This document shows, one piece after another, positions 1 to 43,985 of a DNA stretch of 43,985 nt. Under the pieces are notes generated by a model, which made no database searches, was not told where the DNA came from, and was given only the letters and a program-made list of their open reading frames with translations. Source of the DNA: a virus; the IMG/VR virus record IMGVR_UViG_3300032086_001355, positions 1-43,985 of that record; one strand, given 5' to 3'. A program made the translations under genes and the position numbers. Position 1 is the stretch's first letter, and each line of letters starts with the position of its first letter.

Positions 1-91
1 CACGGGCCGTCCGCGTGCGACTTTACGGCACGCGCTGATGAGGAGAAAATCATGGAAAATCGCAAAACGGTAACACCCACGCAGGTGAGTG
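1..91. repeat. terminal duplication, left copy
   Basis: These 91 bases are identical to the last 91 bases of the window. The copy starts inside stem III of a hammerhead ribozyme motif (complete at 43880-43937) and runs into the first small gene. A duplication that begins and ends at points without biological meaning is best read as assembly overlap of a circular or circularly permuted molecule. It is unlikely to be the true direct terminal repeat of the virion DNA, which in T7-like phages is normally longer and lies outside genes. Confidence 0.95.
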
Positions 92-213
92 AAATCACCG
101 AAACGATCACGCTCGAAACGCGCACGGCGCAGGTGATCGACTTCCCGCGTGCCGACCTCGAATGGCTCGACATCGCAACCCGCTCGGTACAGGCGTACGA
201 GGTGCTGGCGTGA
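52..213 (+). CDS. early small protein, 53 aa, unknown function
   Basis: ATG at 52 follows the ribosome binding site GAGGAG, which is itself the 3' end of a hammerhead core (CTGATGAGGA, 36-45). The product is a 53-residue soluble protein beginning MENRKTVTPT and ending AYEVLA, with alternating charged and Thr-rich segments and no membrane helix or known motif. The next gene starts at 210 inside the stop codon. Its first 13 codons reappear at 43946-43985 because of the terminal duplication. I do not recognise a family. Its place in the early region suggests a host-takeover or anti-defence role, which is inference only. Confidence 0.75.
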   Translation: MENRKTVTPTQVSEITETITLETRTAQVIDFPRADLEWLDIATRSVQAYEVLA

Positions 214-434
214 GGCGCGTGCATACGGTGAAGCTGCCGCACGGGTTCCGCATCGAATGCGTGACCAACACGAATCGCAGGACGCGCACGGCGCACCTGA
301 CGGCTCACGTGTACGAGGGCAGTGACCGGGTCAAATCGCGGTACACGAGCATGGACAATCCGGCCACGTGCGGGGCGCTGATCGACTTCCGCGCAAGCTG
401 GCTGGACACTGTCGCCCGTGAGGTGCTGGCGTGA
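210..434 (+). CDS. early small protein, 74 aa, unknown function
   Basis: I choose the GTG at 210 because it overlaps the preceding TGA (GTGA) and has GAGGTG seven bases upstream; an in-frame ATG at 162 would overlap the previous gene by 52 bases. The product (start VRRVHTVKLP, end VAREVLA) is basic at the N-terminus, with short beta-like stretches and two cysteines. Its last codons and stop lie in GAGGTGCTGGCGTGA, exactly as in the preceding gene, so both gene ends carry the same ribosome-binding and coupling cassette. Family unknown. Confidence 0.75.
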   Translation: MRRVHTVKLPHGFRIECVTNTNRRTRTAHLTAHVYEGSDRVKSRYTSMDNPATCGALIDFRASWLDTVAREVLA

Positions 435-787
435 AGGTGTTCAAATTCGATCCCGCGACTGGTCGCAGGGGCGAGCAAATCGACACGCGCAAGTGCATCG
501 ACTGGACCTCGGAGTACCTGCCCGTGGACTTCGAGCCACGCGGGTTCGGGACCGACGCGGAAGTGACGGTTCATCACGACGCAGGCGTGGGCATCGGTGA
601 GGATTCGTACAGCTATCGCTACCCGGATACGTGGATATGCTTCTGCTCGGGCGAATGGCACATGGGCGTGAATGACGACGGCACGCCAGAACGTCGCTGG
701 GTCTGGACGATCCTGCCTCCCGCGCCTGCTGATCCACGGCAGATCGACTACCCGCACGATAGCGACATCGACACCCGGTACACGTGA
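431..787 (+). CDS. early protein, 118 aa, unknown function
   Basis: Starts with GTG at 431 inside the stop of the upstream gene, with GAGGTG upstream in the duplicated cassette. The protein is rich in Trp, Asp, Tyr and Pro, has no membrane segment, and its C-terminal third is strongly acidic (DYPHDSDIDTRYT). It ends with TGA at 785-787, and those bases are followed at once by the CCGAAAC of a hammerhead ribozyme, so there is no spare intergenic sequence. No family recognised. Confidence 0.8.
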   Translation: MKVFKFDPATGRRGEQIDTRKCIDWTSEYLPVDFEPRGFGTDAEVTVHHDAGVGIGEDSYSYRYPDTWICFCSGEWHMGVNDDGTPERRWVWTILPPAPADPRQIDYPHDSDIDTRYT

Positions 788-841
788 CCGAAACCTGCTC
801 CGGCAGGTCCGCATGCGACGATACGGCATGCGCTGATGAGG
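788..841 (+). ncRNA. hammerhead ribozyme, type II, copy 2
   Basis: The conserved core is present: CC-GAAA (788-793), stem III ACCTGC/GCAGGT (793-798 with 803-808) closed by a TCCG loop of the UNCG class, cleavage triplet GTC ending at 809, stem I CGCATGC/GCATGCG (810-816 with 826-832) with loop GACGATACG, then CTGATGA (833-839) and GG. Stem II is open and limited to two G-C pairs (788-789 with 840-841). Cleavage is predicted between 809 and 810. The motif starts directly after the upstream TGA and its final GAGGA serves as ribosome binding site for the ATG at 849. The motif is directly visible; activity is not shown. Confidence 0.85.
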
Positions 842-848
842 AAATGAC

Positions 849-974
849 ATGGAAAACAATCTCGCGAACATCGCAAACACGCAGACAATCGCGGCAGTCT
901 GGTTCTGCCTCGTGTTCCTGCTTCCCGCGTACGTAGCACTGCTCCGGTTCATCTGGAAGGCAGGCCGCAAGTGA
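849..974 (+). CDS. early single-pass membrane protein, 41 aa
   Basis: ATG at 849 lies eight bases behind the GAGGA end of the hammerhead core; an ATG at 844 gives no sensible product. The 41-residue protein has a polar N-terminus (MENNLANIANTQ), one hydrophobic helix at about residues 13-35 (Trp, Phe, Leu, Val, Pro) and a basic tail (WKAGRK), which favours N-out/C-in topology in the inner membrane. Small single-span proteins of this kind are common in phage early regions. Function unknown. The following gene overlaps its stop. Confidence 0.7.
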   Translation: MENNLANIANTQTIAAVWFCLVFLLPAYVALLRFIWKAGRK

Positions 975-1234
975 GGGCCGCTGTCGTACCCGTGCAGCTG
1001 GAGTACAACGACCGTGGGGATACGATCACGGTATCCGCGTGGCAGCTGCTGCAATGGAAGCATGCGCTCCGGCTCGAAGCCAAGGGCATGACGATGTCAC
1101 GTGGACGCAAGGTGTCGACGCACCTGCGCCGCCTGATGAACCTGAAACGCAACACGCCTGTATCGTACCTGAGTGAGTGGGTCGAGGGCGCACTGGATGC
1201 CGTCAACACGGCAATGGGAGTGGAAAATGGATAG
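971..1234 (+). CDS. early basic protein, 87 aa, unknown function
   Basis: GTG at 971 overlaps the stop of the upstream membrane protein. The N-terminal 25 residues look like a beta strand pair followed by a helix (SAWQLLQWKHALRLEAKG). The middle is very basic (MSRGRKVSTHLRRLMNLKR) and could bind nucleic acid; that is inference from charge only. It overlaps the next gene by eight bases. No family recognised. Confidence 0.72.
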   Translation: MRAAVVPVQLEYNDRGDTITVSAWQLLQWKHALRLEAKGMTMSRGRKVSTHLRRLMNLKRNTPVSYLSEWVEGALDAVNTAMGVENG

Positions 1235-1658
1235 GAAATACTTCGACGATTGCATGTGCAACTACTCGGACGTGTACGATGGCGACAAGCCGCTGATGAT
1301 CGTGTCAGAGGGCAAGTCGACGCTCGCATACGAGACACTCGTGATGATGGCCGAGCGTAGCAACCTCTGGGTTGAGCTTGCCATGCTCCGGTGCGAGGAC
1401 GGTCTGCTCCACGAGCATGCCTTCATCGGGCGGCGCAACATCGTACCGGGCGAGACTAACCCGGCACGTGCAGGTCTGGACCTCGTGTTCGACTGCAAGG
1501 AAGGCCAGATCAGTCGCTCGCGCCTGCAATACGAGCTTGGGCAGCTGCTTGGGTACCCGCTCGATGACGTGCTGGACTTCATCGCGAGCAAGGTAGCACG
1601 TGAGTGCCCGTGCGACTGCTGCGGTGGACCATACGTGAGCGAGGAGATCACCGGGTAG
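1227..1658 (+). CDS. early protein, 143 aa, with C-terminal Cys cluster
   Basis: ATG at 1227 is preceded by GGGAG (1216-1220) and overlaps the end of the upstream gene; the same frame is open further upstream but codes no better start. The protein has a mixed alpha/beta look and a C-terminal cysteine group (CPCDCC, about residues 128-133) that could bind a metal. The stop at 1656-1658 is followed two bases later by a G-tract hairpin repeat and then a hammerhead. Function not recognised. Confidence 0.75.
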   Translation: MDRKYFDDCMCNYSDVYDGDKPLMIVSEGKSTLAYETLVMMAERSNLWVELAMLRCEDGLLHEHAFIGRRNIVPGETNPARAGLDLVFDCKEGQISRSRLQYELGQLLGYPLDDVLDFIASKVARECPCDCCGGPYVSEEITG

Positions 1659-1677: not shown

Positions 1678-1687
1678 CACGACGTTA

Positions 1688-1745
1688 CCGAAACGCCGCT
1701 TCCACAGGGCGTACGTGCATGACGATACGATGCACGCTGATGAGG
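1688..1745 (+). ncRNA. hammerhead ribozyme, type II, copy 3 (GUA cleavage site)
   Basis: Core elements: CC-GAAA (1688-1693); stem III ACGCC, bulged G, CT, loop TCCAC, AG, GGCGT (1693-1712); cleavage triplet GTA ending at 1713; stem I CGTGCAT/ATGCACG (1714-1720 with 1730-1736) with the same GACGATACG loop as copy 2; CTGATGA (1737-1743) and GG. Stem II has two G-C pairs. GTA fits the NUH rule, although GUC is commoner. The downstream ATG at 1756 uses GAGGAGAG, the end of the motif, as its ribosome binding site. Confidence 0.85.
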
Positions 1746-1755
1746 AGAGTACACG

Positions 1756-1998
1756 ATGGGCATACGCCTGACGATGGAGTACTTCGCGGACACGTGGAGT
1801 ACCGACGAGTCGACCACCCGCACGGCCAAGCACACGATCAAGGCTGGCGAGGTGACGTACCTGCACAAGGTGGTCGCGCACTACGCATGGGACAGCATGA
1901 ACTACTGCGTCCTGAGCATAGGCGACAAGGTCGACAGCTACTGGGTGCGTGACGGTGAGTCACGTGAATGGAAATGGACGGGAGATGCTGATGTTTAG
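1756..1998 (+). CDS. early protein, 80 aa, unknown function
   Basis: ATG at 1756 is the first start after the hammerhead, with GAGGAG at 1742-1747. The product has an alternating pattern typical of a small beta-rich domain (KAGEVTYLHKVVAHYAWD, then SIGDKVDSYWV) and an acidic, Trp-containing end. No membrane helix, no known motif. The next gene begins eight bases before its stop. Confidence 0.75.
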   Translation: MGIRLTMEYFADTWSTDESTTRTAKHTIKAGEVTYLHKVVAHYAWDSMNYCVLSIGDKVDSYWVRDGESREWKWTGDADV

Positions 1999-2608
1999 CA
2001 CGGATCAGTCACGCATACAGGCGTGGTGTAAGAATCCCGACAAGTTCCTGCGAGTGGGCACGATGGTGCTACTCTCGATCCGCATGCAGTGGGTCGGAGT
2101 GGGCAATCAGATGGCCGACGTGCAGGTACACGGGAGCAAGTCGAAGTGCCTGTGGGGTTTCAAGCAGGCGGGCTACGTGTACCTGCGAGACAATCGCAAG
2201 GCACTGTACGCTGCGACGAGGGACGCACGGGCAGGACGGATCAGCACTGCTGACCTGATGCGTGAGTTCCTGAAGGTGCCGGGACTGGGGCTGCCGAAAG
2301 CAGGCTTCCTCGTGCAGCTACTGACGGGCAAGTCAGGCTGCCTCGACATGCACAACGTCGAGCGGTTCGGGCTGGACGTGAGCGTCTGGAATGTGCGGAC
2401 GTACAAGGACACGGCCAAGCAGATGCGTGAGATTGACGACAAGATCGCAGTCTACCTCGCGCTGATCGAGGCATGTGGCGGGAGTGAGAAATTGTGGGAC
2501 GACTGGTGCGAGCATGTGAATGACCGTGTCGGTACCTTCGAGGGTGCCGAGGACGTATCACGCAGGCACTACATCTATCTGTTAGACATACCGGGAGAAC
2601 AAGCATGA
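1991..2608 (+). CDS. helix-hairpin-helix (HhH-GPD-like) protein, 205 aa
   Basis: Of two close ATGs (1985, 1991) the second is better spaced from GGGAG at 1979-1983. Around residues 94-130 the sequence reads LKVPGLGLPKAGFLVQLL, then GCLDMHNVERFG. That is the pattern of HhH-GPD proteins of the Nth/MutY DNA glycosylase superfamily: hairpin P-G-x-G, then D-x-H-x-x-R. The remainder is helical. A DNA-binding or base-excision-like role in the infected cell is likely, but the catalytic Lys of bifunctional glycosylases is not evident. Nucleotide-level overlap with both neighbours indicates translation coupling. Confidence 0.75.
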   Translation: MFSTDQSRIQAWCKNPDKFLRVGTMVLLSIRMQWVGVGNQMADVQVHGSKSKCLWGFKQAGYVYLRDNRKALYAATRDARAGRISTADLMREFLKVPGLGLPKAGFLVQLLTGKSGCLDMHNVERFGLDVSVWNVRTYKDTAKQMREIDDKIAVYLALIEACGGSEKLWDDWCEHVNDRVGTFEGAEDVSRRHYIYLLDIPGEQA

Positions 2609-5087: not shown

Positions 5088-7508
5088 ATGACTGAACGTC
5101 AAGAGATGAGAGAATTAACCCAGTTAGATGAAGGTGTTAGAAGGTATCACCGTGAGGTTAGCAAGCAGGGTGCCGGAGAGACTACTGCTGGACTGGGTCT
5201 TGTGTATGTAGGGATGAAGGCATTGATCCCTGCCATCGAAGGGAACATTGCCCGCCTTGAGGAGGGAGGCAACGGCAACCTGCCATCGCAGGTACCACTG
5301 GCCTATCAGTACATGGTAGGCATGAAGGCAGATGCCATCGCATACATCGCAAGCAAGGTGGTGGTGTCGGCATCCGTGAACCGAGGCAAGCTGACCCGTA
5401 CCGCAATGCAGATTGCGAACCTGATCGAGGAGGACTACAGGTTCGAGGAACTGGAGCAGGCTGAACCTGCGCTGGCCAACAGCATGAGCAAGAAGGCGCA
5501 ACGCTGGAGCAGTAGCGGGGCACGTCGTCGCATCATGCGCAAGGCGGCACAGGTGGCAGGCATAGCCACGATGGGCTGGACTGAGGCTGAGAAACTGAAG
5601 CTGGGTGTCAAGCTGGTCGAGTTGTACATCGAGACAACGGGGCTGGCGCAGCTGGTCGAGACACAAGAGGGCAAGATGACCTTCAAGTTGATCGAGATGA
5701 CTGAGCTGGCAGCCGAGCGTCTGGCCTCACGACACGCAAGCCTTGAAGGTGAGCGTCCAGTGAACAAGCCGATGATCGCGCCGCCTAAACCGTGGACCTC
5801 ACCGATCTCGGGTGGGTACCTGACACCACGCATGAAGACTGACTTGGTGCGTGGCGTAGGGCAGGCCACACGTGACGAGGTGTTCAGCTGTGACATGCCG
5901 GAGGTGTACGCCGCAGTCAACAGGGTGCAGGCTACACCTTGGCGCATCAACGTGGGTGTACTCGACACCATGCAGGCAGTGTTCGACGAGGGTGGTACTC
6001 TCGGTGGCCTGCCGCAGGCTGACGACATGGCACTGCCCGAGCGGCCCGAGAGTATCGACCGCAAGTGCAGTCCTGATGACATGCCCGAGGACATGTGTGC
6101 CACGTTCAACGAGTGGAAGCAGGCAGCACGTGAGGTGCATGAGTTCAACGGTCAGCTTAAGAGCAAGCGACTGGCACTCATCACCAAGCTGAACATGGCA
6201 CAGGACGTGCGAGATGAGGAGTCGATCTGGTTCCCGCACTCGCTGGACTTCCGTGGCCGTGTGTACTCCATGACGACCGAGCTGTCACCGCAGGGTGATG
6301 ACATTGCCAAGAGCCTGATTGAATTCGGCAACGGCAAGGCACTCGGTGAGACTGGTGGTTACTGGCTGGCTGTACATATCGCCAACCTGTTCGGTGTCGA
6401 CAAGGTATCGTTCGATGACCGGGTGGAGTGGACGGTGACGCAGTCGGACAAGCTGGTCGAGTCTGCGATGAACCCGCTCGATGGCGACAGGTTCTGGGCC
6501 AAGGCCGATGACCCGTGGTGTGCGCTGGCCGCATGCTTCGAGTGGGCTGGCTTCCAGATCGAGGGTGATGACTACGTGTCTCACCTGCCCATCGCAATGG
6601 ACGGGTCATGCTCTGGCATCCAGCACTTCAGTGCCATGCTGAGGGATGCGGAGGGTGGACGTGCTGTCAACCTGACCAACCTCGACCAGCCCTCGGACAT
6701 CTACACTGAGGTGTTGTACGTGGTGCAGGATATGTTGGCAGAAAATTCTGACCCGCTTGCTAAGGTGTGGATGGACAAGGTGGATCGCAAGATCGTCAAG
6801 CGTCCGTGCATGACCTTCGCGTACTCGGTGACGAGCGTCGGGATCAGGGATCAGATCGCCAGTGAGATGCGCAAGCAGACTGACGGTCAGTACCTGCCGG
6901 GGCATGAGAACTGGCAGGCTGCCATGTTCCTCGCACCCATCGTCGAGGCTGCCATCAGGCAGGTGGTCAAGCGTGCAGCTGAGGCTATGGACTGGCTCAA
7001 GCTGGCGGCCAAGGCACTCACCGCCGAGGAGATACCTACATCTTGGGTGACTCCACTGGGATTCCCGGTAGTCCAGCCGTACCGCAAGGCCAAGGGTCAG
7101 CTGTTCAAGGTCTGGTTCCAAGGCCAGCGCATCAGGCTGACGCTGAGGGTGGAGAGCAGGACCATCGACGGACGCAAGCAAGCGTCGAGTGTGGCACCCA
7201 ACTTCGTACACTCACTGGATGCTACCCATCTGATGATGGTGGTGAACAGGTTGTACGACGAGGGCATCACACCCAACACGGCCATGATCCATGACTCGTT
7301 CGGAGTCCATGCCTGTGACGTGGATGAGCTGCACTACGTGATACGTGATGAGTTCATCAAGCTGTACTCGGAGGACATCCTCACCCGTACCTACCAGTCA
7401 ACACTGCTGGCACTGCCGGGTGACAAGTGGCCTGACCTGCCGACACCACCGGAAGCGGGCGACCTGAACCTTGAGGAGGTGCGTGATGCCGACTTCTTCT
7501 TCGCCTAA
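5088..7508 (+). CDS. single-subunit DNA-directed RNA polymerase (T7 gp1-like)
   Basis: T7-family RNA polymerase that transcribes the phage middle and late genes. At 806 residues it is shorter than T7's 883. Motif A is DGSCSGIQHFSAMLRD with catalytic Asp505; motif B is KRPCMTFAYS with Lys571 and Tyr579, the same spacing as T7 Lys631/Tyr639; motif C is HDSFG with catalytic Asp736. The specificity-loop region lies between PYRKAKGQ and APNFVHS and differs fully from T7, so its promoter will differ. The protein ends in DADFFFA, matching the conserved aromatic foot. It is the first large gene after the early block. Confidence 0.98.
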   Translation: MTERQEMRELTQLDEGVRRYHREVSKQGAGETTAGLGLVYVGMKALIPAIEGNIARLEEGGNGNLPSQVPLAYQYMVGMKADAIAYIASKVVVSASVNRGKLTRTAMQIANLIEEDYRFEELEQAEPALANSMSKKAQRWSSSGARRRIMRKAAQVAGIATMGWTEAEKLKLGVKLVELYIETTGLAQLVETQEGKMTFKLIEMTELAAERLASRHASLEGERPVNKPMIAPPKPWTSPISGGYLTPRMKTDLVRGVGQATRDEVFSCDMPEVYAAVNRVQATPWRINVGVLDTMQAVFDEGGTLGGLPQADDMALPERPESIDRKCSPDDMPEDMCATFNEWKQAAREVHEFNGQLKSKRLALITKLNMAQDVRDEESIWFPHSLDFRGRVYSMTTELSPQGDDIAKSLIEFGNGKALGETGGYWLAVHIANLFGVDKVSFDDRVEWTVTQSDKLVESAMNPLDGDRFWAKADDPWCALAACFEWAGFQIEGDDYVSHLPIAMDGSCSGIQHFSAMLRDAEGGRAVNLTNLDQPSDIYTEVLYVVQDMLAENSDPLAKVWMDKVDRKIVKRPCMTFAYSVTSVGIRDQIASEMRKQTDGQYLPGHENWQAAMFLAPIVEAAIRQVVKRAAEAMDWLKLAAKALTAEEIPTSWVTPLGFPVVQPYRKAKGQLFKVWFQGQRIRLTLRVESRTIDGRKQASSVAPNFVHSLDATHLMMVVNRLYDEGITPNTAMIHDSFGVHACDVDELHYVIRDEFIKLYSEDILTRTYQSTLLALPGDKWPDLPTPPEAGDLNLEEVRDADFFFA

Positions 7509-9123: not shown

Positions 9124-9532
9124 CGTGACGTGGAGGGGTAAGCAGTCTTTCGAGATTGTCTTACCCTTCCCACCCACACCTGCCTCACGACCACGTGTCA
9201 CCAAGTGGGGTGCGTACTACGGCAAGACATACAAGGCGTACCGTGAACTCGCGGAACAGGCAATACCGGAGTCACGTCAGCCCGTGCTAACAGGCGCACT
9301 CAAGGCCACGATTGAATTCGTGTGTCACAAACCGAAGACAACGAAACGTACAGTACCGTTGGGCGACATCGACAACCACTGCAAGGCAGTACTCGATGCG
9401 ATCACGGGTAAGAAACCCAACTTCAAGATGTACTGGGTGGACGACGACCAGATCACAGAGCTGTACGCATTGAAACGCTGGCCCTCACCGGGTGAGCAAC
9501 CACACACAAGGATCAAAGTTGAGACAATATGA
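9107..9532 (+). CDS. RusA-like Holliday junction resolvase
   Basis: The 141-residue product has the RusA-family arrangement: an N-terminal P-F-P-P-T-P-x-x-R-P-R-V segment, then GDIDNHCKAVLDAI with Asp87, Asp89 and Asp97, and VDDDQI with Asp113 as further candidate metal ligand. RusA enzymes cut four-way DNA junctions as dimers. It occupies the slot of T7 endonuclease I (gp3), which also resolves junctions but is unrelated, so this is a functional replacement. The start is uncertain: ATG 9107 is chosen, while ATG 9101 and GTG 9125 are alternatives. It overlaps the SSB and amidase genes. Confidence 0.85.
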   Translation: MAKNSNVTWRGKQSFEIVLPFPPTPASRPRVTKWGAYYGKTYKAYRELAEQAIPESRQPVLTGALKATIEFVCHKPKTTKRTVPLGDIDNHCKAVLDAITGKKPNFKMYWVDDDQITELYALKRWPSPGEQPHTRIKVETI

Positions 9533-9978
9533 ACTGGAAGAAGCTGAAGGCAGTGGACTACATCGTGATCCATTGTTCAGCAACGAAGGAAGACCAGAAC
9601 TTCACAGTCGAGGACATACGGAGGTGGCACAGACAGAAAGGATGGATGGATGTCGGCTACCACTTCGTGATAACTCGGGACGGGGAAGTACAGAAGGGTC
9701 GACCTCACGATGTTCCCGGCGCACACGTGCGTGGTTTCAACCACATCAGCCTCGGCATCTGCTTGGTTGGTGGGGTGGAATCTGACGGGAAGACACCCGA
9801 GAGTAACTACACTGCCTTTCAATGGAAGGCACTCGAATCATTGGTCAAGGACCTGCGCAACCTATACCCGGACGCTACTGTGCTGGGACACAGGGACATG
9901 CCCAATGTAAACAAGGCGTGCCCGTCATTCGATGTTCTGGAATGGTGGAGCAAAGTGGGGGGCCAACCCCAGAACTGA
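9529..9978 (+). CDS. N-acetylmuramoyl-L-alanine amidase (T7 lysozyme, gp3.5-like)
   Basis: The 149-residue protein matches T7 lysozyme in length (151). Zinc ligands are His15 (VIHCSAT), His121 and Cys131 (GHRDMPNVNKACPSFD); Tyr44 (GYHF) and Lys129 correspond to the catalytic Tyr and Lys. It cleaves the amide between MurNAc and L-Ala in peptidoglycan and, as in T7, may bind and inhibit the phage RNA polymerase; the second role is known for the family, not shown here. ATG overlaps the previous stop. The last six residues (GGQPQN) are encoded by the hairpin repeat at 9957. Confidence 0.95.
   Translation: MNWKKLKAVDYIVIHCSATKEDQNFTVEDIRRWHRQKGWMDVGYHFVITRDGEVQKGRPHDVPGAHVRGFNHISLGICLVGGVESDGKTPESNYTAFQWKALESLVKDLRNLYPDATVLGHRDMPNVNKACPSFDVLEWWSKVGGQPQN
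9957..9974 (+). repeat. G6-CCAA-C4 hairpin repeat, copy 4
   Basis: Six G, CCAA, four C, AGAA. It differs from the other copies by one G and lies inside the 3' end of the lysozyme gene, supplying its last codons and running up to the stop codon. The tract length therefore sets the reading frame of the C-terminus. Confidence 0.85.
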
Positions 9979-10003
9979 TGAAACATTTCTTGAGGAGAGA
10001 AAC

Positions 10004-10315
10004 ATGAGTAACACAGCAAGACAACTGCAAGCACTGGACCTGTACGCTGAGTACGCAATCCTTCGGGACTACCTGCTCACGCAGACACGGTACGTGACAC
10101 AGTCCGAGATCACTCACGTGACTGGCCTGTCAGGTGTGAAGACCCGACAGATTTGTAACGCTTACCCGTGCCTCGCTATTGGTACGACCGAGGGTTACAA
10201 GCTGGCACGCTACGCCTCGAAGGCAGAGGTACAGCATGCCGCATCAACCCTGATGAACCGCAGCATCAAGATGTTGCAACGTGCGCAAGCACTGTCCGGG
10301 TTGCTGGCGCGATGA
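10004..10315 (+). CDS. helix-turn-helix-like protein, 103 aa
   Basis: ATG at 10004 has TGAGGAGAG at 9991-9999. Residues about 30-55 (YVTQSEITHVTGLSGVKTRQ) have the turn and spacing of a winged or plain helix-turn-helix, with flanking helices and a basic C-terminus. Probably DNA-binding, either regulatory or an accessory to the adjacent primase-helicase. The exact family is not recognised. The stop overlaps the next ATG. Confidence 0.65.
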   Translation: MSNTARQLQALDLYAEYAILRDYLLTQTRYVTQSEITHVTGLSGVKTRQICNAYPCLAIGTTEGYKLARYASKAEVQHAASTLMNRSIKMLQRAQALSGLLAR

Positions 10316-25397: not shown

Positions 25398-27059
25398 ATG
25401 GCTCGCGATTCAAGACAACGCAGTACCCGCAAGGACCAGCCCCTCAATGCTGGCCAGCGTCCGGTACAACTACGTGAGAGCCGTAGGTTCCTGACCTCAC
25501 AGGGCAACGATCAGGCCACACGCCAAGCTCGTGCCCTTCAGCAGGCGTTCGGCGTAGGTGCCGACCTCACGACTGAGATACTCAATCAGCGCAACGAGAA
25601 GGGCCGCTCAACGGCTGCCTTCGAGTCAGCTGCTGGTATGTCCCGTGACGCGGAGACTACCAACAAGGGCTACGCTGAGATGTGGGACGAGATCGAAGCC
25701 AAGAATGACCTCGCCCTGTTCGCCAAGGAGTTGCCTGAAGTTCTACGTGGCGCTGACTGGGAGAACCTTGGAGAGGATGAAGCTCAGGCTGTGATCGACG
25801 GTTACTACTCGGCACAGCTCAAGGGCATCAACCCTCAGTCTGTCTACGGACAGCAGGTATCCGAAGGTATCTTCGCACAGAACGCACAGCTGCTCGACAC
25901 GCACCGTAACTTCCAGTTGGAACGTGTACGGCAAGAGCAGAGGGTGATGATCTACAACGAAGCCAAGAACGGCTTAGAGATTGACGGTGTGGTCGACTAC
26001 GAGAAGATCGGTAAGCGTACCGGACTCGCGTTCGACGGTGCCGAGAAGGTCACGACCTACTGGGAGATGATCTTTGACCTCGCGATTGATGCGGGTGATG
26101 AGACGATCATCTCGAACGCACCCGAGCGGTTCCCTTCCGGCGACCCGACAGGTATCTCTGATCCCAACATGGCAGAGGACATCAACACTGCCATCTCCAA
26201 GGCACGTGCCGTCCGTGAAGGACGCGAGGCTGGCGTTGCTGCTGCCGCTAAGGCACAGCGAGAGGAACTGCGGAAGAACGGCAGGGCACACCTGACCGTC
26301 CAGCTACTCTCCGGCATCGACCCGACAGCCGACACGGTTGACCTCCTGCGCAACGGCATCATCCAAGCAGAGGATGCGACTGCCGCTGTCTCTGCGTGGC
26401 GTACAAGCCGCGACGATGCAGCACAGCATGGGTTCGACGCTCCCCGTGTCAACCAGCTCCAGACGCAGATCGCACTCAACCCCAGTCACCCTATGGTGTC
26501 CCCGCTGAACCTTCAGCAGGAGTGGGCCAAGGGCGCGTTCGGTCCTCCGCATTCCCCAGAAGCTAAGACGGCATACCGTCAGATGCTTGCTGACTTGGAA
26601 GGCTCGCAGGATCGCAAGCAACGGCTGGCCGCTGATCCACGCAAGAAGACGTGGGTCAACAGGTTCGATGAATCGTTCCCTGTCCCGTCCAACCAGTTCG
26701 GCTTCCCGGCTCCCGGCCCGCTGACTGAGCTACGCGCTGAGTACTCGGCCATGTTCGAGCTTGCCATACTGGAAGCAGGACCTGCCGACTACGCGAACGT
26801 CTACACCCAGTACGCCGAGATGTACAAGAAGGCTGAGGGTCTGACCAACGCGCAGGTGCAGTCACGCACGCCACAGGCTGTGTTCCGCAACGTACTGAAC
26901 GGTGCCTTTACGCCCGAGCAGGGTGCGGCTCACATGCGCCAGACTGGCATGACGGTGGAGCAGCTCATCAGCGCCAAGGCTGGCGGTGAACTTAAAGCTG
27001 AACCCGGCACACCAGAGTTTGAACAATACAGATTGCTGCTTGAGCAATTCGCTAATTAA
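25398..27059 (+). CDS. internal virion protein C (T7 gp15-like)
   Basis: 553 residues, clearly shorter than T7 gp15 (747). It is mostly helical with repeated short acidic helices, and has the VQLRESRRFLTSQ and LDTHRNFQLERVRQE segments expected of this family. It builds part of the core stack and, after ejection, the periplasmic part of the channel. ATG at 25398 follows TAAGGAACC. The identity rests partly on gene order between gp14- and gp16-like genes. Confidence 0.85.
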   Translation: MARDSRQRSTRKDQPLNAGQRPVQLRESRRFLTSQGNDQATRQARALQQAFGVGADLTTEILNQRNEKGRSTAAFESAAGMSRDAETTNKGYAEMWDEIEAKNDLALFAKELPEVLRGADWENLGEDEAQAVIDGYYSAQLKGINPQSVYGQQVSEGIFAQNAQLLDTHRNFQLERVRQEQRVMIYNEAKNGLEIDGVVDYEKIGKRTGLAFDGAEKVTTYWEMIFDLAIDAGDETIISNAPERFPSGDPTGISDPNMAEDINTAISKARAVREGREAGVAAAAKAQREELRKNGRAHLTVQLLSGIDPTADTVDLLRNGIIQAEDATAAVSAWRTSRDDAAQHGFDAPRVNQLQTQIALNPSHPMVSPLNLQQEWAKGAFGPPHSPEAKTAYRQMLADLEGSQDRKQRLAADPRKKTWVNRFDESFPVPSNQFGFPAPGPLTELRAEYSAMFELAILEAGPADYANVYTQYAEMYKKAEGLTNAQVQSRTPQAVFRNVLNGAFTPEQGAAHMRQTGMTVEQLISAKAGGELKAEPGTPEFEQYRLLLEQFAN

Positions 27060-40028: not shown

Positions 40029-41774
40029 ATGAACACGTATCCCGTATGGGTGCAGACAGGTACCCACAAGAAGATGCACGACGACTTCAAGGTCTTCTTG
40101 TGGTGGCTCTGGAAGCAACTGGGACTACCCGACCCGACAGAAGCACAGTACGAGATCGCGGACTACCTTCAGTACGGCCCCAAGCGCCGGATCGTGATGG
40201 CGTTCCGTGGCGTAGGCAAGAGCTGGATCACAGCCGCCTTCGTCCTCTGGTGCCTCATGCGTAACCCGCAAGAGAAGATGATGGTGGTATCGGCCAGCGA
40301 GTACAAGGCTGCCGAGTTCTCCACGTTCACCAAGCAGCTCATCGAGACGCTCCCCCTGTTAAGCTGGCTACAAGCTCGCCCAAAGGACGGACAGCGTGAC
40401 TCGGTGCTTGCCTTCGACGTAGGACCCTCTACGCCCGCACAGGCTCCCTCAGTGCGAGCTGTGGGTGTTACCGGGCAGATGACTGGTGGTCGCGCCACGA
40501 AGGTGATCTTCGATGACATCGAGGTTCCCAACAACTCAGAGACTGAAGGCAAACGAGAGAAGCTGGACAACCGCGCCCGTGAAATGGGTGGTGCTATTCT
40601 GGTACCGGGCGGTGACTCCATTGGACTCGGCACTCCTCAGTCTACACAAACCATCTACAACGGGTTCAGTGAGCGCGGGTACAACCTGCGAGTCTGGCCT
40701 GCGAGGTATCCTGATGAAGAACAAATCCAAAAGTACCAAGGACGTTTGGCTCCCGGCATTCTTCGACGGCTCTCAGACGATAGTAGCTTGGTGGGACGAC
40801 CAGTCGATCCTGCTCGATTCCACGAAGAAGACTTGCTGGAGCGTGAAGCTGAGTATGGAAGAAGTGGATTCGCACTTCAGTTCATGCTCGACACCACACT
40901 CTCTGATGAGAATAGGTACCCGCTCAAACTGAGGGACCTGATCGTCATGGACGTGGACACCGAGCGTGCCCCTGCCCGTATCACGTGGGCAACCTCTGAG
41001 GCGCTCCCAGTGGACAACGTGGGACTCACAGGGGACAGGTACTACCTACCCATGAGCGTCTCCACGAAAGACGAGGACATGCTTCCCTACGAAGCCTCAG
41101 TCCTGTTCGTCGATCCCTCCGGGCGCGGCAAGGATGAGACTGCCTTCTGTGTGGCCAAGATGCTGCATGGACGGGTGTTCGTCAAACGCTGGGGCGGTTT
41201 CACAGGTAACGGTTACGACGAGGTCGTACTCGAAGCTCTGGCTACCATTGCCAAGAACGAGCAGGTGAACGAGGTGTGGACCGAGGACAACTTCGGTGAC
41301 GGCATGTTCAACGCCCTGTTCGCTCCTGTCCTGAACCGGATACATCCCTGTGGCCTTGACGGGTACCGGGTGTCCGGCCAGAAGGAAGCGAGGATGATCG
41401 ACAAGCTCGAACCTGTTATGAACAATCACAGGCTTGTCATTGATAAGTCCATCGTGGAACAACAGTTCAACAACCTGCCAGAAGACGCAGGAGAACGTGC
41501 CCGCTACTACAACCAGTTCTACCAGATGGCATTCGTCACACGTGACAGGGGTGCCCTCAAGCAGGACGATAGACTCGATGTCCTTGCAGAAGCTGTCGGT
41601 TACTTTACCTCGATGGTCGCCAGAGACACTGAGAGGGCCGCTGACAGGACTTCAGAGAAGCAGAAGGACAAGTCCCTTAAGGAGTTCATAAAGGCTGCCC
41701 AGCGTGGCCACACGAAGCGTGACCTGTATCCTGCACCCAAACGTAGGAAGGGTTCGTGGGCACGAAGGCGATAA
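40029..41774 (+). CDS. terminase large subunit (T7 gp19-like)
   Basis: 581 residues (T7 gp19 has 586). Walker A is FRGVGKSW (about residues 59-66), Walker B ATKVIFDDIE near 158, and the coupling region is GTPQSTQTIYN. The nuclease domain begins with VDPSGRGKDET near 358, and TEDNFGDGMF and DDRLDVLAEAV supply the other acidic residues. It powers DNA packaging and cuts concatemers. ATG at 40029 follows CGAGGAGAG. The C-terminus is basic (PAPKRRKGSWARRR), as expected for portal contact. Confidence 0.97.
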   Translation: MNTYPVWVQTGTHKKMHDDFKVFLWWLWKQLGLPDPTEAQYEIADYLQYGPKRRIVMAFRGVGKSWITAAFVLWCLMRNPQEKMMVVSASEYKAAEFSTFTKQLIETLPLLSWLQARPKDGQRDSVLAFDVGPSTPAQAPSVRAVGVTGQMTGGRATKVIFDDIEVPNNSETEGKREKLDNRAREMGGAILVPGGDSIGLGTPQSTQTIYNGFSERGYNLRVWPARYPDEEQIQKYQGRLAPGILRRLSDDSSLVGRPVDPARFHEEDLLEREAEYGRSGFALQFMLDTTLSDENRYPLKLRDLIVMDVDTERAPARITWATSEALPVDNVGLTGDRYYLPMSVSTKDEDMLPYEASVLFVDPSGRGKDETAFCVAKMLHGRVFVKRWGGFTGNGYDEVVLEALATIAKNEQVNEVWTEDNFGDGMFNALFAPVLNRIHPCGLDGYRVSGQKEARMIDKLEPVMNNHRLVIDKSIVEQQFNNLPEDAGERARYYNQFYQMAFVTRDRGALKQDDRLDVLAEAVGYFTSMVARDTERAADRTSEKQKDKSLKEFIKAAQRGHTKRDLYPAPKRRKGSWARRR

Positions 41775-42522: not shown

Positions 42523-42692
42523 CTACCAGTCGACGGCACGGCACCCGGCACGGCACCCGGCACGGCACCCGGCACGATAGCGGGCAGGGTGCTACCAGTC
42601 GACGGCACGGCACCCGGCAGGCAGGCAGGCAGGCACCCGGCAGGCACGGCAAGGGTGCCGGAAAGGGTGCGCAAGGGTGCCGGAAAGGGTGC
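42523..42692. repeat. tandem repeat arrays near the probable genome end
   Basis: Three layers are visible. The 12-mer GGCACGGCACCC is present three times and a half (42535-42576). A 28-base unit starting CTACCAGTCGACGG occurs at 42523-42550 and 42592-42619. GGCA is repeated five times around 42615-42635. Then AAGGGTGCCGGAAAGGGTGC occurs twice with period 22 (42651-42670, 42673-42692). The GGGTGC units are the reverse complement of the GCACCC units, so the single strand can fold into long hairpins. I infer a role like T7 SRL/SRR in concatemer processing. Confidence 0.8.
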
Positions 42693-43232: not shown

Positions 43233-43287
43233 TAGTCGCGCACTGGATTGTATCGTGCGCCTGATGAGGCCCAGCAGGCCGAAACTA
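43233..43287 (+). ncRNA. hammerhead ribozyme, type III, copy 5
   Basis: Elements in order: TAGT (43233-43236), cleavage C43237, stem I GCGCAC/GTGCGC (43238-43243 with 43255-43260) with loop TGGATTGTATC, CTGATGA (43261-43267), stem II GGCC-CAGCA-GGCC (43268-43280), GAAA (43281-43284), and stem III ACTA (43284-43287) pairing with TAGT. All conserved core positions are met. Stem III is the open one and has only four pairs. It is the first of the five in transcription order, 21 bases before the ATG at 43309. Cleavage is predicted between 43237 and 43238. Confidence 0.85.
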
Positions 43288-43308
43288 ACTGAAAATTGGA
43301 GAAATACC

Positions 43309-43497
43309 ATGGCAAATCTCACGAATGAACAACGCAGCGCAATCCTGTCCGCACGTGCCAAGAATCGCAAGGCCGCGATTGCATTGCAGTCGGTCGAACT
43401 GGACGTGCCTAAGGCAGTCGCGGCTCACATGCGTGCAGTCGAGGATTGGGCAAACAAGGCGCTCGCACCCGCTGCGAAAGCCAAGAAAACCGCGTAA
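43309..43497 (+). CDS. first early protein, 62 aa, basic
   Basis: ATG at 43309 follows TTGGAGAAA, downstream of the type III hammerhead; the same frame is open upstream but runs through the ribozyme and is not credible as protein. The product starts MANLTNEQRSAILSARAK, is helical and basic, and ends in Lys/Ala-rich sequence (AAKAKKTA). It is the first gene behind the presumed early promoter region, the place of T7 gene 0.3, but shows no likeness to Ocr, which is acidic. Function unknown. Confidence 0.75.
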   Translation: MANLTNEQRSAILSARAKNRKAAIALQSVELDVPKAVAAHMRAVEDWANKALAPAAKAKKTA

Positions 43498-43504
43498 CAC
43501 GTGA

Positions 43505-43572
43505 CCGAAACGCGCACCCTGCACATGCGGGGTGTCGCGTCCGTGTCCCACGTATCGGGCACGCTGATGAGG
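43505..43572 (+). ncRNA. hammerhead ribozyme, type II, copy 4 (long stem III)
   Basis: CC-GAAA (43505-43510); stem III ACGCG/CGCGT continued by CACCC/GGGTG and a short inner stem, with one bulged T (43510-43540); cleavage triplet GTC ending at 43541; stem I CGTGTCC/GGGCACG (one G-T pair; 43542-43548 with 43557-43563); CTGATGA (43564-43570) and GG. Stem II has two G-C pairs. The loop of stem I (CACGTATC) differs from the other copies. GAGGATAGGA at its end serves the ATG at 43581. Confidence 0.82.
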
Positions 43573-43580
43573 ATAGGAAA

Positions 43581-43727
43581 ATGGCAAAATCGAATAGCAG
43601 TCACCGCGTGCAATCCCGCGCACGTTACGCCGCCGAAACACTGGCAGATACCCGCGCACGCTCGAACGTCGACTGGGTCGCGCTGCGTGCCGAAAATGAC
43701 CGTCGCGCCAAGCTGGCACGCTCGTGA
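43581..43727 (+). CDS. early basic protein, 48 aa
   Basis: ATG at 43581 follows GGATAGGA from the hammerhead end. The protein is very basic (HRVQSRARYAAETLADTRAR; ENDRRAKLARS) and helical, compatible with nucleic-acid binding. Its stop overlaps the next GTG start (GTGA). Function unknown. Confidence 0.7.
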   Translation: MAKSNSSHRVQSRARYAAETLADTRARSNVDWVALRAENDRRAKLARS

Positions 43728-43879
43728 GTCGTCGCCTGAATTGGGCCAACGCGGCCACGTCGCGACTGGCACGCAAGGCGGCTCGTACGCCGTCACGGAT
43801 ACCCGCGAAGGGTTCATACCTGCACGACCTCACGTGCGACATCGTGGCCAAGCGCAATGCGCGACTGGCCGCCAAGTGA
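43724..43879 (+). CDS. early basic protein, 51 aa
   Basis: GTG at 43724 overlaps the previous TGA. The 51-residue product (MSRRLNWANAATSRLARKA..., ending AKRNARLAAK) has many Arg and Lys and few acidic residues. It resembles its upstream neighbour in composition. The stop TGA (43877-43879) is followed at once by the CCGAAAC of the next hammerhead, as at 785-787. Function unknown. Confidence 0.65.
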   Translation: MSRRLNWANAATSRLARKAARTPSRIPAKGSYLHDLTCDIVAKRNARLAAK

Positions 43880-43937
43880 CCGAAACGGTGCCTACACGGG
43901 CCGTCCGCGTGCGACTTTACGGCACGCGCTGATGAGG
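43880..43937 (+). ncRNA. hammerhead ribozyme, type II, copy 1
   Basis: CC-GAAA (43880-43885); stem III ACGGT, bulged G, CC, loop TACAC, GG, GCCGT (43885-43904, one G-T pair); cleavage triplet GTC ending at 43905; stem I CGCGTGC/GCACGCG (43906-43912 with 43922-43928) with loop GACTTTACG; CTGATGA (43929-43935) and GG. Stem II has two G-C pairs. Stem III has exactly the bulge and loop plan of copy 3 with different bases. It serves the gene starting at 43946, identical to 52. The part from 43895 is duplicated at window position 1. Confidence 0.85.
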
Positions 43938-43985
43938 AGAAAATCATGGAAAATCGCAAAACGGTAACACCCACGCAGGTGAGTG
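43895..43985. repeat. terminal duplication, right copy
   Basis: Exact copy of bases 1-91; see the left copy. Joining the ends gives one continuous early region, with the ribozyme at 43880 complete and the gene starting at 43946 continuing as the one at 52. Confidence 0.95.
43946..43985 (+). CDS. 5' fragment of the 53-aa early gene (same as 52-213)
   Basis: ATG at 43946 and the first 13 codons are the same gene as at 52; it is cut by the window end. It should not be counted as a second gene. Confidence 0.8.
   Translation, partial: MENRKTVTPTQVS

Follow-up and report, generated by a model that had tools for sequence, protein, structure and literature searches.

Why phages carry rows of hammerhead ribozymes has been an open question since 2011, and the locus described here raises it for an early region, the part of the genome where T7 makes use of the host RNase III. 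In T7, this enzyme cuts the early polycistronic transcript between genes and thereby generates hairpin-ended mRNAs; some of its sites flank gene 1, which encodes the RNA polymerase (RNAP). The window, i.e. the whole stretch of 43,985 nucleotides that was analysed, is a closed 43.9 kb T7-like phage contig with a 91-base terminal overlap (positions 1-91 equal 43895-43985), and the sequence of the relative L001 is continuous across its circular junction. The original prediction had placed several hammerheads in a T7-like early region of this contig and proposed that they process the early mRNA.

The T7-like setting was confirmed by the gene order, which runs from RNAP, a T7-type ssb, a RusA nuclease, amidase, primase/helicase, DNA polymerase and exonuclease to portal, capsid assembly, capsid, nozzle, internal and tail proteins and terL (40029-41774). 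The interval from terL to RNAP consists of a mostly non-coding leader of about 1 kb followed by small genes on the plus strand. It contains the following features, where the coordinates of HHR2-HHR5 include the 5' flank:

43233-43287, plus strand: HHR1, type III hammerhead preceding g1, in the early leader (descriptor; RF00008, 29.4 bits)
43309-43497, plus strand: g1, small early gene of 62 aa (MANLTNEQRSAILSARAKNRKAA...; homologues in relatives)
43499-43573, plus strand: HHR2, compact type II hammerhead preceding g2, 5' flank ACGU (descriptor; model R1, 51.2 bits)
43581-43727, plus strand: g2, 48 aa, overlapping the start of g3 (unit g2-g3; open frame)
43724-43879, plus strand: g3, 51 aa (open frame; homologue in L071, 51%)
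43874-43938, plus strand: HHR3, compact type II hammerhead preceding g4, 5' flank AAGU (RF02276, 32.3 bits; R1, 82.4 bits)
52-787, plus strand: unit of g4 (52-213), g5 (210-434) and g6 (431-787) (open frames)
782-842, plus strand: HHR4, compact type II hammerhead before g7 (descriptor; R1, 77.9 bits)
849-1658, plus strand: unit of g7 (849-974), g8 (971-1234) and g9 (1227-1658) (open frames)
1682-1746, plus strand: HHR5, compact type II hammerhead before g10 (descriptor; RF02276, 24.4 bits; R1, 76.7 bits)
1756-2608, plus strand: g10 (1756-1998) and g11 (1991-2608), opening the unit past the last hammerhead (open frames)
5088-7508, plus strand: phage T7-like RNAP, end of the early region (phrog_414, E = 1.8e-235; PF00940)

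The five hammerheads, one of type III and four of type II, are distinct, lie on the coding strand between terL and the RNAP gene and span about 2.4 kb around the circular junction. The three complete cores of the original prediction were thus found where it had located them, the two further copies it had suggested across the junction (HHR4 and HHR5) are real, and each hammerhead precedes a small early gene (g1, g2, g4, g7 and g10), as it had stated. All five combine the core elements CUGANGA, GAAA and NUH at a three-stem junction, with GUC as cleavage triplet in four copies and GUA in one. HHR1 has 6 bp in stem I, 4 bp in stem II and 3 bp in stem III, with cleavage predicted after C43237 (GUC), and its Shine-Dalgarno sequence (GGAG) is separate and located downstream. 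In HHR2-HHR5, stem I comprises 7 bp, stem II 2 bp and stem III 4-6 bp, and cleavage is predicted after C43541, C43905 (equal to position 11 in the terminal repeat), C809 and A1713 (GUA), respectively. These sites are the same five that had originally been proposed. The type II copies present AGGA ahead of the ATG at 43581 (HHR2), AGGAG ahead of that at 43946, equal to 52 (HHR3), AGGA ahead of that at 849 (HHR4) and AGGAG ahead of that at 1756 (HHR5). The UGA stop codon of g3 adjoins stem II of HHR3, and that of g6 (785-787) falls within the 5' linker of HHR4.

A strict descriptor found exactly these five hammerheads in the window and none in 60 dinucleotide shuffles, and CTGATGAG occurred nine times compared to 2.3 expected. 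An Rfam search, named as a check in the original prediction, matched HHR3 (RF02276, E = 1.9e-6 for the genome), HHR5 (RF02276, E = 2.3e-4) and HHR1 (RF00008) but missed HHR2 and HHR4, and all window copies scored below the gathering cut-offs of 37 for RF02276 and 48.5 for RF00008 (best scores, 32.3 and 29.4 bits). The hammerhead assignment is based on structure and covariation and not on an Rfam cut-off. Model R1, which was built from ten type II copies, recovered HHR2 from outside its seed (E = 3.3e-11), and scanning the window with it gave no further site beyond the known copies. Weak R1 matches of up to 9.7 bits, e.g. at 26954 (minus strand) and 4867, were rejected as noise, and Rfam matches to mir-1545, sR53 and isrG as chance hits far under the cut-off. 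An apparent sixth hammerhead at 2-41 is not a separate ribozyme but HHR3 again, because the 91-base terminal repeat passes through HHR3. RNAfold favored alternative pairings around HHR1 and partly around HHR2.

All five hammerheads are kept in L001 (about 94% nucleotide identity in this region), where stem I of HHR5 carries a compensatory change from A-U to C-G and HHR1 has a longer stem III and a GUA site. Other relatives are L134, L015 and L071, whose terL shares 85%, 69% and 67% amino-acid identity with that of the window, and L137 (RNAP, 62%; terL, about 76%). L134 has five type II hammerheads and L015 one type III followed by four type II copies, one with the core CTGACGA; L071 and L137 possess a type III hammerhead before the g1 homologue and then one and two type II copies, respectively. 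The g1 homologues (58% identity in L071, 64% in L137, 42% in L134 and 44% in L015) are each preceded by a hammerhead. Among the other early genes, g4 and g6 have homologues in L134 and L071, respectively, g8 and g9 in L134 (65-66%), g9 also in L071, and g11 in L134 (68%), where it likewise follows a hammerhead. The genes between the sites are partly shuffled across the relatives, and the ribozymes remain at gene starts. In the three stems of the ten type II copies, 97.9% of the pair cells were formed and 11 of 14 pairs showed double changes, with a covariation of 0.822 compared to 0.244 for shuffled and at most 0.113 for slid controls. Stem I was paired in 100% and stem III in 94% of the cells, while stem II is uninformative for covariation because of its invariant CC/GG. 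Comparative support for the type III copy HHR1 comes from its position and from L001, L071 and L137. Outside its training set, R1 also recovered a copy in L015 (1018-1083, 63 bits) and three in L134 (51, 44 and 28 bits); L015 reaches 48.7 bits with RF02276. In L270, CTGATGAGGACAGGAAAATG at 6798 is located ahead of the g1 homologue with a broken GAAA element (GGTAG) and looks like a decayed compact hammerhead that has retained its Shine-Dalgarno role.

The hammerheads bound the units g1, g2-g3, g4-g6, g7-g9 and g10 onwards, so that some early genes have no site of their own. Inside the units, e.g. g4-g6, start codons overlap with stop codons. Scanned for sigma-70 promoters and terminators, the early region gave no signal above shuffles; a single early transcript is assumed here, as no early host promoter was identified. 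Neither RNA ligase nor RtcB occurred among the scanned window proteins, a subset of the open reading frames. A GGGGGGGCCAACCCCAGAA-like repeat is present in seven intergenic copies on the plus strand (1661, 4996, 8048, 9957, 16763, 41845 and 42502), one immediately 5' of HHR5 and one 5' of RNAP. Its variants retain a GGGG...CCCC hairpin and are common to L001, and L137 has GGGGGTGACACCCCAGAAGG before RNAP; the repeat is a candidate for a phage-RNAP promoter or a 5' mRNA hairpin. Past terL, the non-coding stretch at 42534-42692 is composed of GC-rich short tandem repeats (CGGCACGGCACC... and GCAAGGGTGCCGGAAAGGGTGC), which possibly represent the terminal region of the packaged genome.

What, then, may the row of ribozymes do? 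From sequence comparison, we consider it probable that the early polycistronic mRNA is processed during its synthesis and that the five hammerheads are the sites at which this happens. Each would fold and cut itself once RNA polymerase has passed, releasing the units named above as separate mRNAs. Every downstream product would start with a 5'-OH and the stem I hairpin from its first nucleotide, and every upstream product of a type II copy would end in the stem III hairpin with a 2',3'-cyclic phosphate. In bacterial mRNA decay, some pathways require a 5' phosphate, and hairpins stop 3' exonucleases; ends made by hammerheads should hence stabilize the products against 5'-end-dependent decay and 3' exonucleases. 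As stop and start codons overlap within the units, translational coupling would be kept inside them and cut between them. We infer cleavage, product stabilization and early-transcript processing from these sequence features, and the processing would serve the phage as RNase III serves T7, presumably independently of that host enzyme.

Several observations favor processing. The five sites occupy gaps between coding units, all on the plus strand and none elsewhere in the genome; the stems covary strongly and held-out copies were recovered; and L001, L134, L015, L071 and L137 share the architecture despite differing sequence and gene order. Furthermore, a survey of 21 IMG/VR loci with a T7-like RNAP and more than 3 kb of upstream sequence yielded nine hammerheads in the 168 kb upstream of RNAP, compared to none in the 205 kb downstream and none on the opposite strand; the nine come from four loci, five from L001 and the others from L167, L177 and L203. 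There is also a precedent in clustered phage hammerheads that cleave in vitro and in E. coli (PMC3088659). Against processing stand the Rfam scores below cut-off, the RNAfold alternatives at HHR1 and HHR2, the promoter scan that left a single early transcript as an assumption, the large share of L001 in the nine-to-none count, and T7-like phages whose searched parts contain no recognizable early hammerheads. Processing of the early mRNA, as originally proposed, is the best explanation, but the idea itself is not new (Perreault et al. 2011, PMC3088659). The parallel to the five RNase III sites of T7 held as a functional analogy; it did not extend to the arrangement, as all five hammerheads lie upstream of RNAP (5088), no further site was detected next to or beyond this gene, and the relatives differ in number.

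Hammerheads are patchily distributed among T7-like phages. The cultured Caulobacter phage S2B (L126) has two early hammerheads, a type III copy (RF00008, 46.6 bits) and a type I copy with one extra base after the core. The former (44992-45033, minus strand) carries AAGGAGG in loop II and the ATG of gp065 in the 3' strand of stem III; in the latter (about 42542-42492, minus strand) an extra T follows CTGACGA. As S2B is cultured, cleavage-gated translation is testable there. The cultured T7-like Rhizobium phage RHEph01 (L291) has a type III hammerhead in its early leader (665-707), which is absent from the annotation of the record. In the parts searched of LUZ100, BB8, a Limnohabitans phage, Pasto, Lo5R7ANS and CRP-227, no hammerhead was detected; since several T7-like phages have no recognizable ones, early hammerheads appear dispensable in general. 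In Mesorhizobium phage Lo5R7ANS (L289), an early gene (9397-10050) is annotated as putative RtcB, the ligase for exactly hammerhead-type ends, yet the early region has no hammerhead match. In S2B, Mycobacterium phage jiawei (L131) and RHEph01, a boxA-like motif (TCTTTGACA..) directly precedes the leader hammerhead or the first early gene, which suggests antitermination of the early transcript. Querying annotated phages with the nucleotide sequence of the hammerhead region gave no match. The exact pattern of the compact form had 14 matches in 84,980 bacterial and archaeal genomes, and as none was a convincing ribozyme, no prophage relative was found. The arrangement conserved in several lineages, together with the related copies in cultured T7-like isolates, makes the processing idea directly testable.

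Two unusual points were absent from the original prediction, namely the fusion of the core to the Shine-Dalgarno sequence and a 5'-side candidate pseudoknot. All 18 compact type II copies (four each in the window, L001 and L015, one in L071 and five in L134) have the AUG at 15-19 nt, counted from the start of CUGANGA; their sole Shine-Dalgarno sequence at a usable distance is GAGGA or GAGGU, which core and stem II form. These copies count as four lineages, because L001 nearly repeats the window. For comparison, we used 85 other phage type II hammerheads from IMG/VR, picked by pattern alone: 69 have a separate Shine-Dalgarno sequence downstream, with the AUG at 22-58 nt, 12 have no clear start, and at most four have a weak overlapping Shine-Dalgarno sequence. 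The Shine-Dalgarno sequences of HHR1 and the L137 copies are also separate from the ribozyme. The four type II copies of the window double as translation starts, with A9-G10.1-G10.2 and the base after them serving as Shine-Dalgarno sequence. This fusion of a type II ribozyme to the start of the next gene looks new: the open-access literature that we searched yielded no hammerheads from T7-like phages and none joined to a Shine-Dalgarno sequence, and to our knowledge a self-cleaving core fused with a ribosome-binding site occurs only in engineered ribozyme switches. Combined with a relocated pseudoknot, it would be a natural counterpart of such switches.

The published type II consensus contains a pseudoknot that joins loop I to the 3' tail (Perreault et al. 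2011, PMC3088659). With a minimum of 4 bp to the tail past stem II, this contact was present in 57% of the 86 phage type II hammerheads used as controls (shuffled, 17%) but in only 7% of the compact copies (shuffled, 5%), and it was absent from those of the window. Instead, the compact copies share a 5' flank, CGU or AGU, directly before nACC, and their loop I begins with ACG or ACU. The variable pair between flank and loop I is C with G in nine and A with U in five copies, i.e. 14 of 14 with no exception (chance, 0.004 when the letters are shuffled inside each genome and 0.0005 when they are pooled); another of the three flank-loop I pairs is disrupted in a single L134 copy. The flank is kept even where it contains no stop codon (HHR2, HHR5, L015b and L071), and the outer relative L137 retains the 3'-tail contact (loop UGGU, tail ACCA). 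Pairing of loop I with the 5' flank thus seems to replace the 3'-tail pseudoknot. We regard this as a well-motivated hypothesis, as the pairing comprises 3-4 bp with one informative pair and was noticed post hoc. Pairing of loop I with ACGU or AAGU just 5' of stem II probably stabilizes the type II fold and would leave the tail free for the ribosome; likely, the contact shifted to the 5' side and so freed the 3' tail as translation start.

The previous gene's stop codon overlaps the 5' flank in HHR3 and HHR4. A more tentative reading would treat the compact type II hammerhead as one joint stop-ribozyme-start element: the contact moved to the 5' side lets stem II act as Shine-Dalgarno sequence, the ribosome ending the previous gene delays folding, and cleavage is timed by translation, with the start fully exposed only afterwards. 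Alternatively, the hammerheads might chiefly control translation of the next gene, in that the folded stem II hides the Shine-Dalgarno sequence and either self-cleavage or a ribosome that opens the 5' flank on completing the preceding gene decides on access. The fusion in all compact copies, compared to at most 4 of 85 others, and the overlapping stop codons agree with such gating, but stem II has merely 2 bp, and HHR1 and the L137 copies have separate Shine-Dalgarno sequences. In addition, thermodynamic folding showed little effect of cleavage on freeing the Shine-Dalgarno sequence, with only a small predicted change in accessibility. We consequently rank translational gating second, as rather unlikely to be the main role; it is also compatible with processing and does not exclude it.

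It is more doubtful still that the hammerheads are selfish or recombination-associated elements, spreading as hammerhead-gene cassettes because these mark gene boundaries open to exchange, and that the phage itself gains little from cleavage. The shuffled gene order between ribozymes that stay at gene starts and the patchy occurrence among T7-like phages would fit this, yet compensatory changes keep the stems in every lineage, the distance to the start codon is tightly fixed, and HHR1 still precedes the g1 homologue in L071 and L137. Chance or decayed look-alikes without activity are highly improbable despite Rfam scores under the cut-off and the 4 of 18 consensus-like candidates that proved inactive in an earlier study (Perreault et al., PMC3088659), given that shuffles contained none, that the stems covary, and that all five copies are kept in L001 and the architecture in L134, L071, L015 and L137.

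Processing of the early mRNA, the preferred reading, has a counterpart in known systems. Perreault et al. (2011, PMC3088659) described prophage hammerhead clusters that flank genes or gene blocks and proposed that they process long transcripts into operon- or gene-length mRNAs; for some of the clusters, they demonstrated cleavage both in E. coli and in vitro. Clustered phage hammerheads and the processing proposal are hence already known, and the reason for the association of bacterial hammerhead and twister ribozymes with genes was still called unknown more recently (Eckert et al. 2023, PMC10085705). Like those clusters, the window has several hammerheads on the same strand flanking genes; unlike them, these lie in a T7-like early region, where a type III copy in the leader precedes type II copies whose core is fused with the Shine-Dalgarno sequence of the next gene and whose loop I may pair with the 5' flank. 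The type II copies of the window resemble RF02276 in the core CUGAUGA, GAAA and NUH, in the loops closing stems I and III and in the open, short stem II, and depart from its consensus in scoring under the gathering cut-off and in having no pseudoknot between loop I and the 3' tail. HHphage of the haloviruses HF1 and HF2 is located 13 nt 5' of the start codon of an early-region gene, with a mapped 5' end near the cleavage site (PMC3088659). It is similar in that a hammerhead shortly precedes an early-region gene start in a lytic virus, and differs in being a single variant hammerhead of an archaeal virus, with no array and no fused Shine-Dalgarno sequence reported. Two unrelated IMG/VR contigs, L028 and L038, carry eight and seven type II hammerheads in gene rows, with near-repeated ribozyme sequences. 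These likewise lie in series directly past stop codons; they differ from the window copies in mostly having the 3'-tail pseudoknot, a separate Shine-Dalgarno sequence and the AUG 22-58 nt after the core. With T7 we draw a functional analogy only and claim no homology: there, a host protein enzyme cuts the transcript, whereas here the RNA would cleave itself, and all window sites precede RNAP. New compared to these systems are the T7-like early setting with its conserved leader-then-array architecture, the fusion with the ribosome-binding site and the 5'-side candidate pseudoknot.
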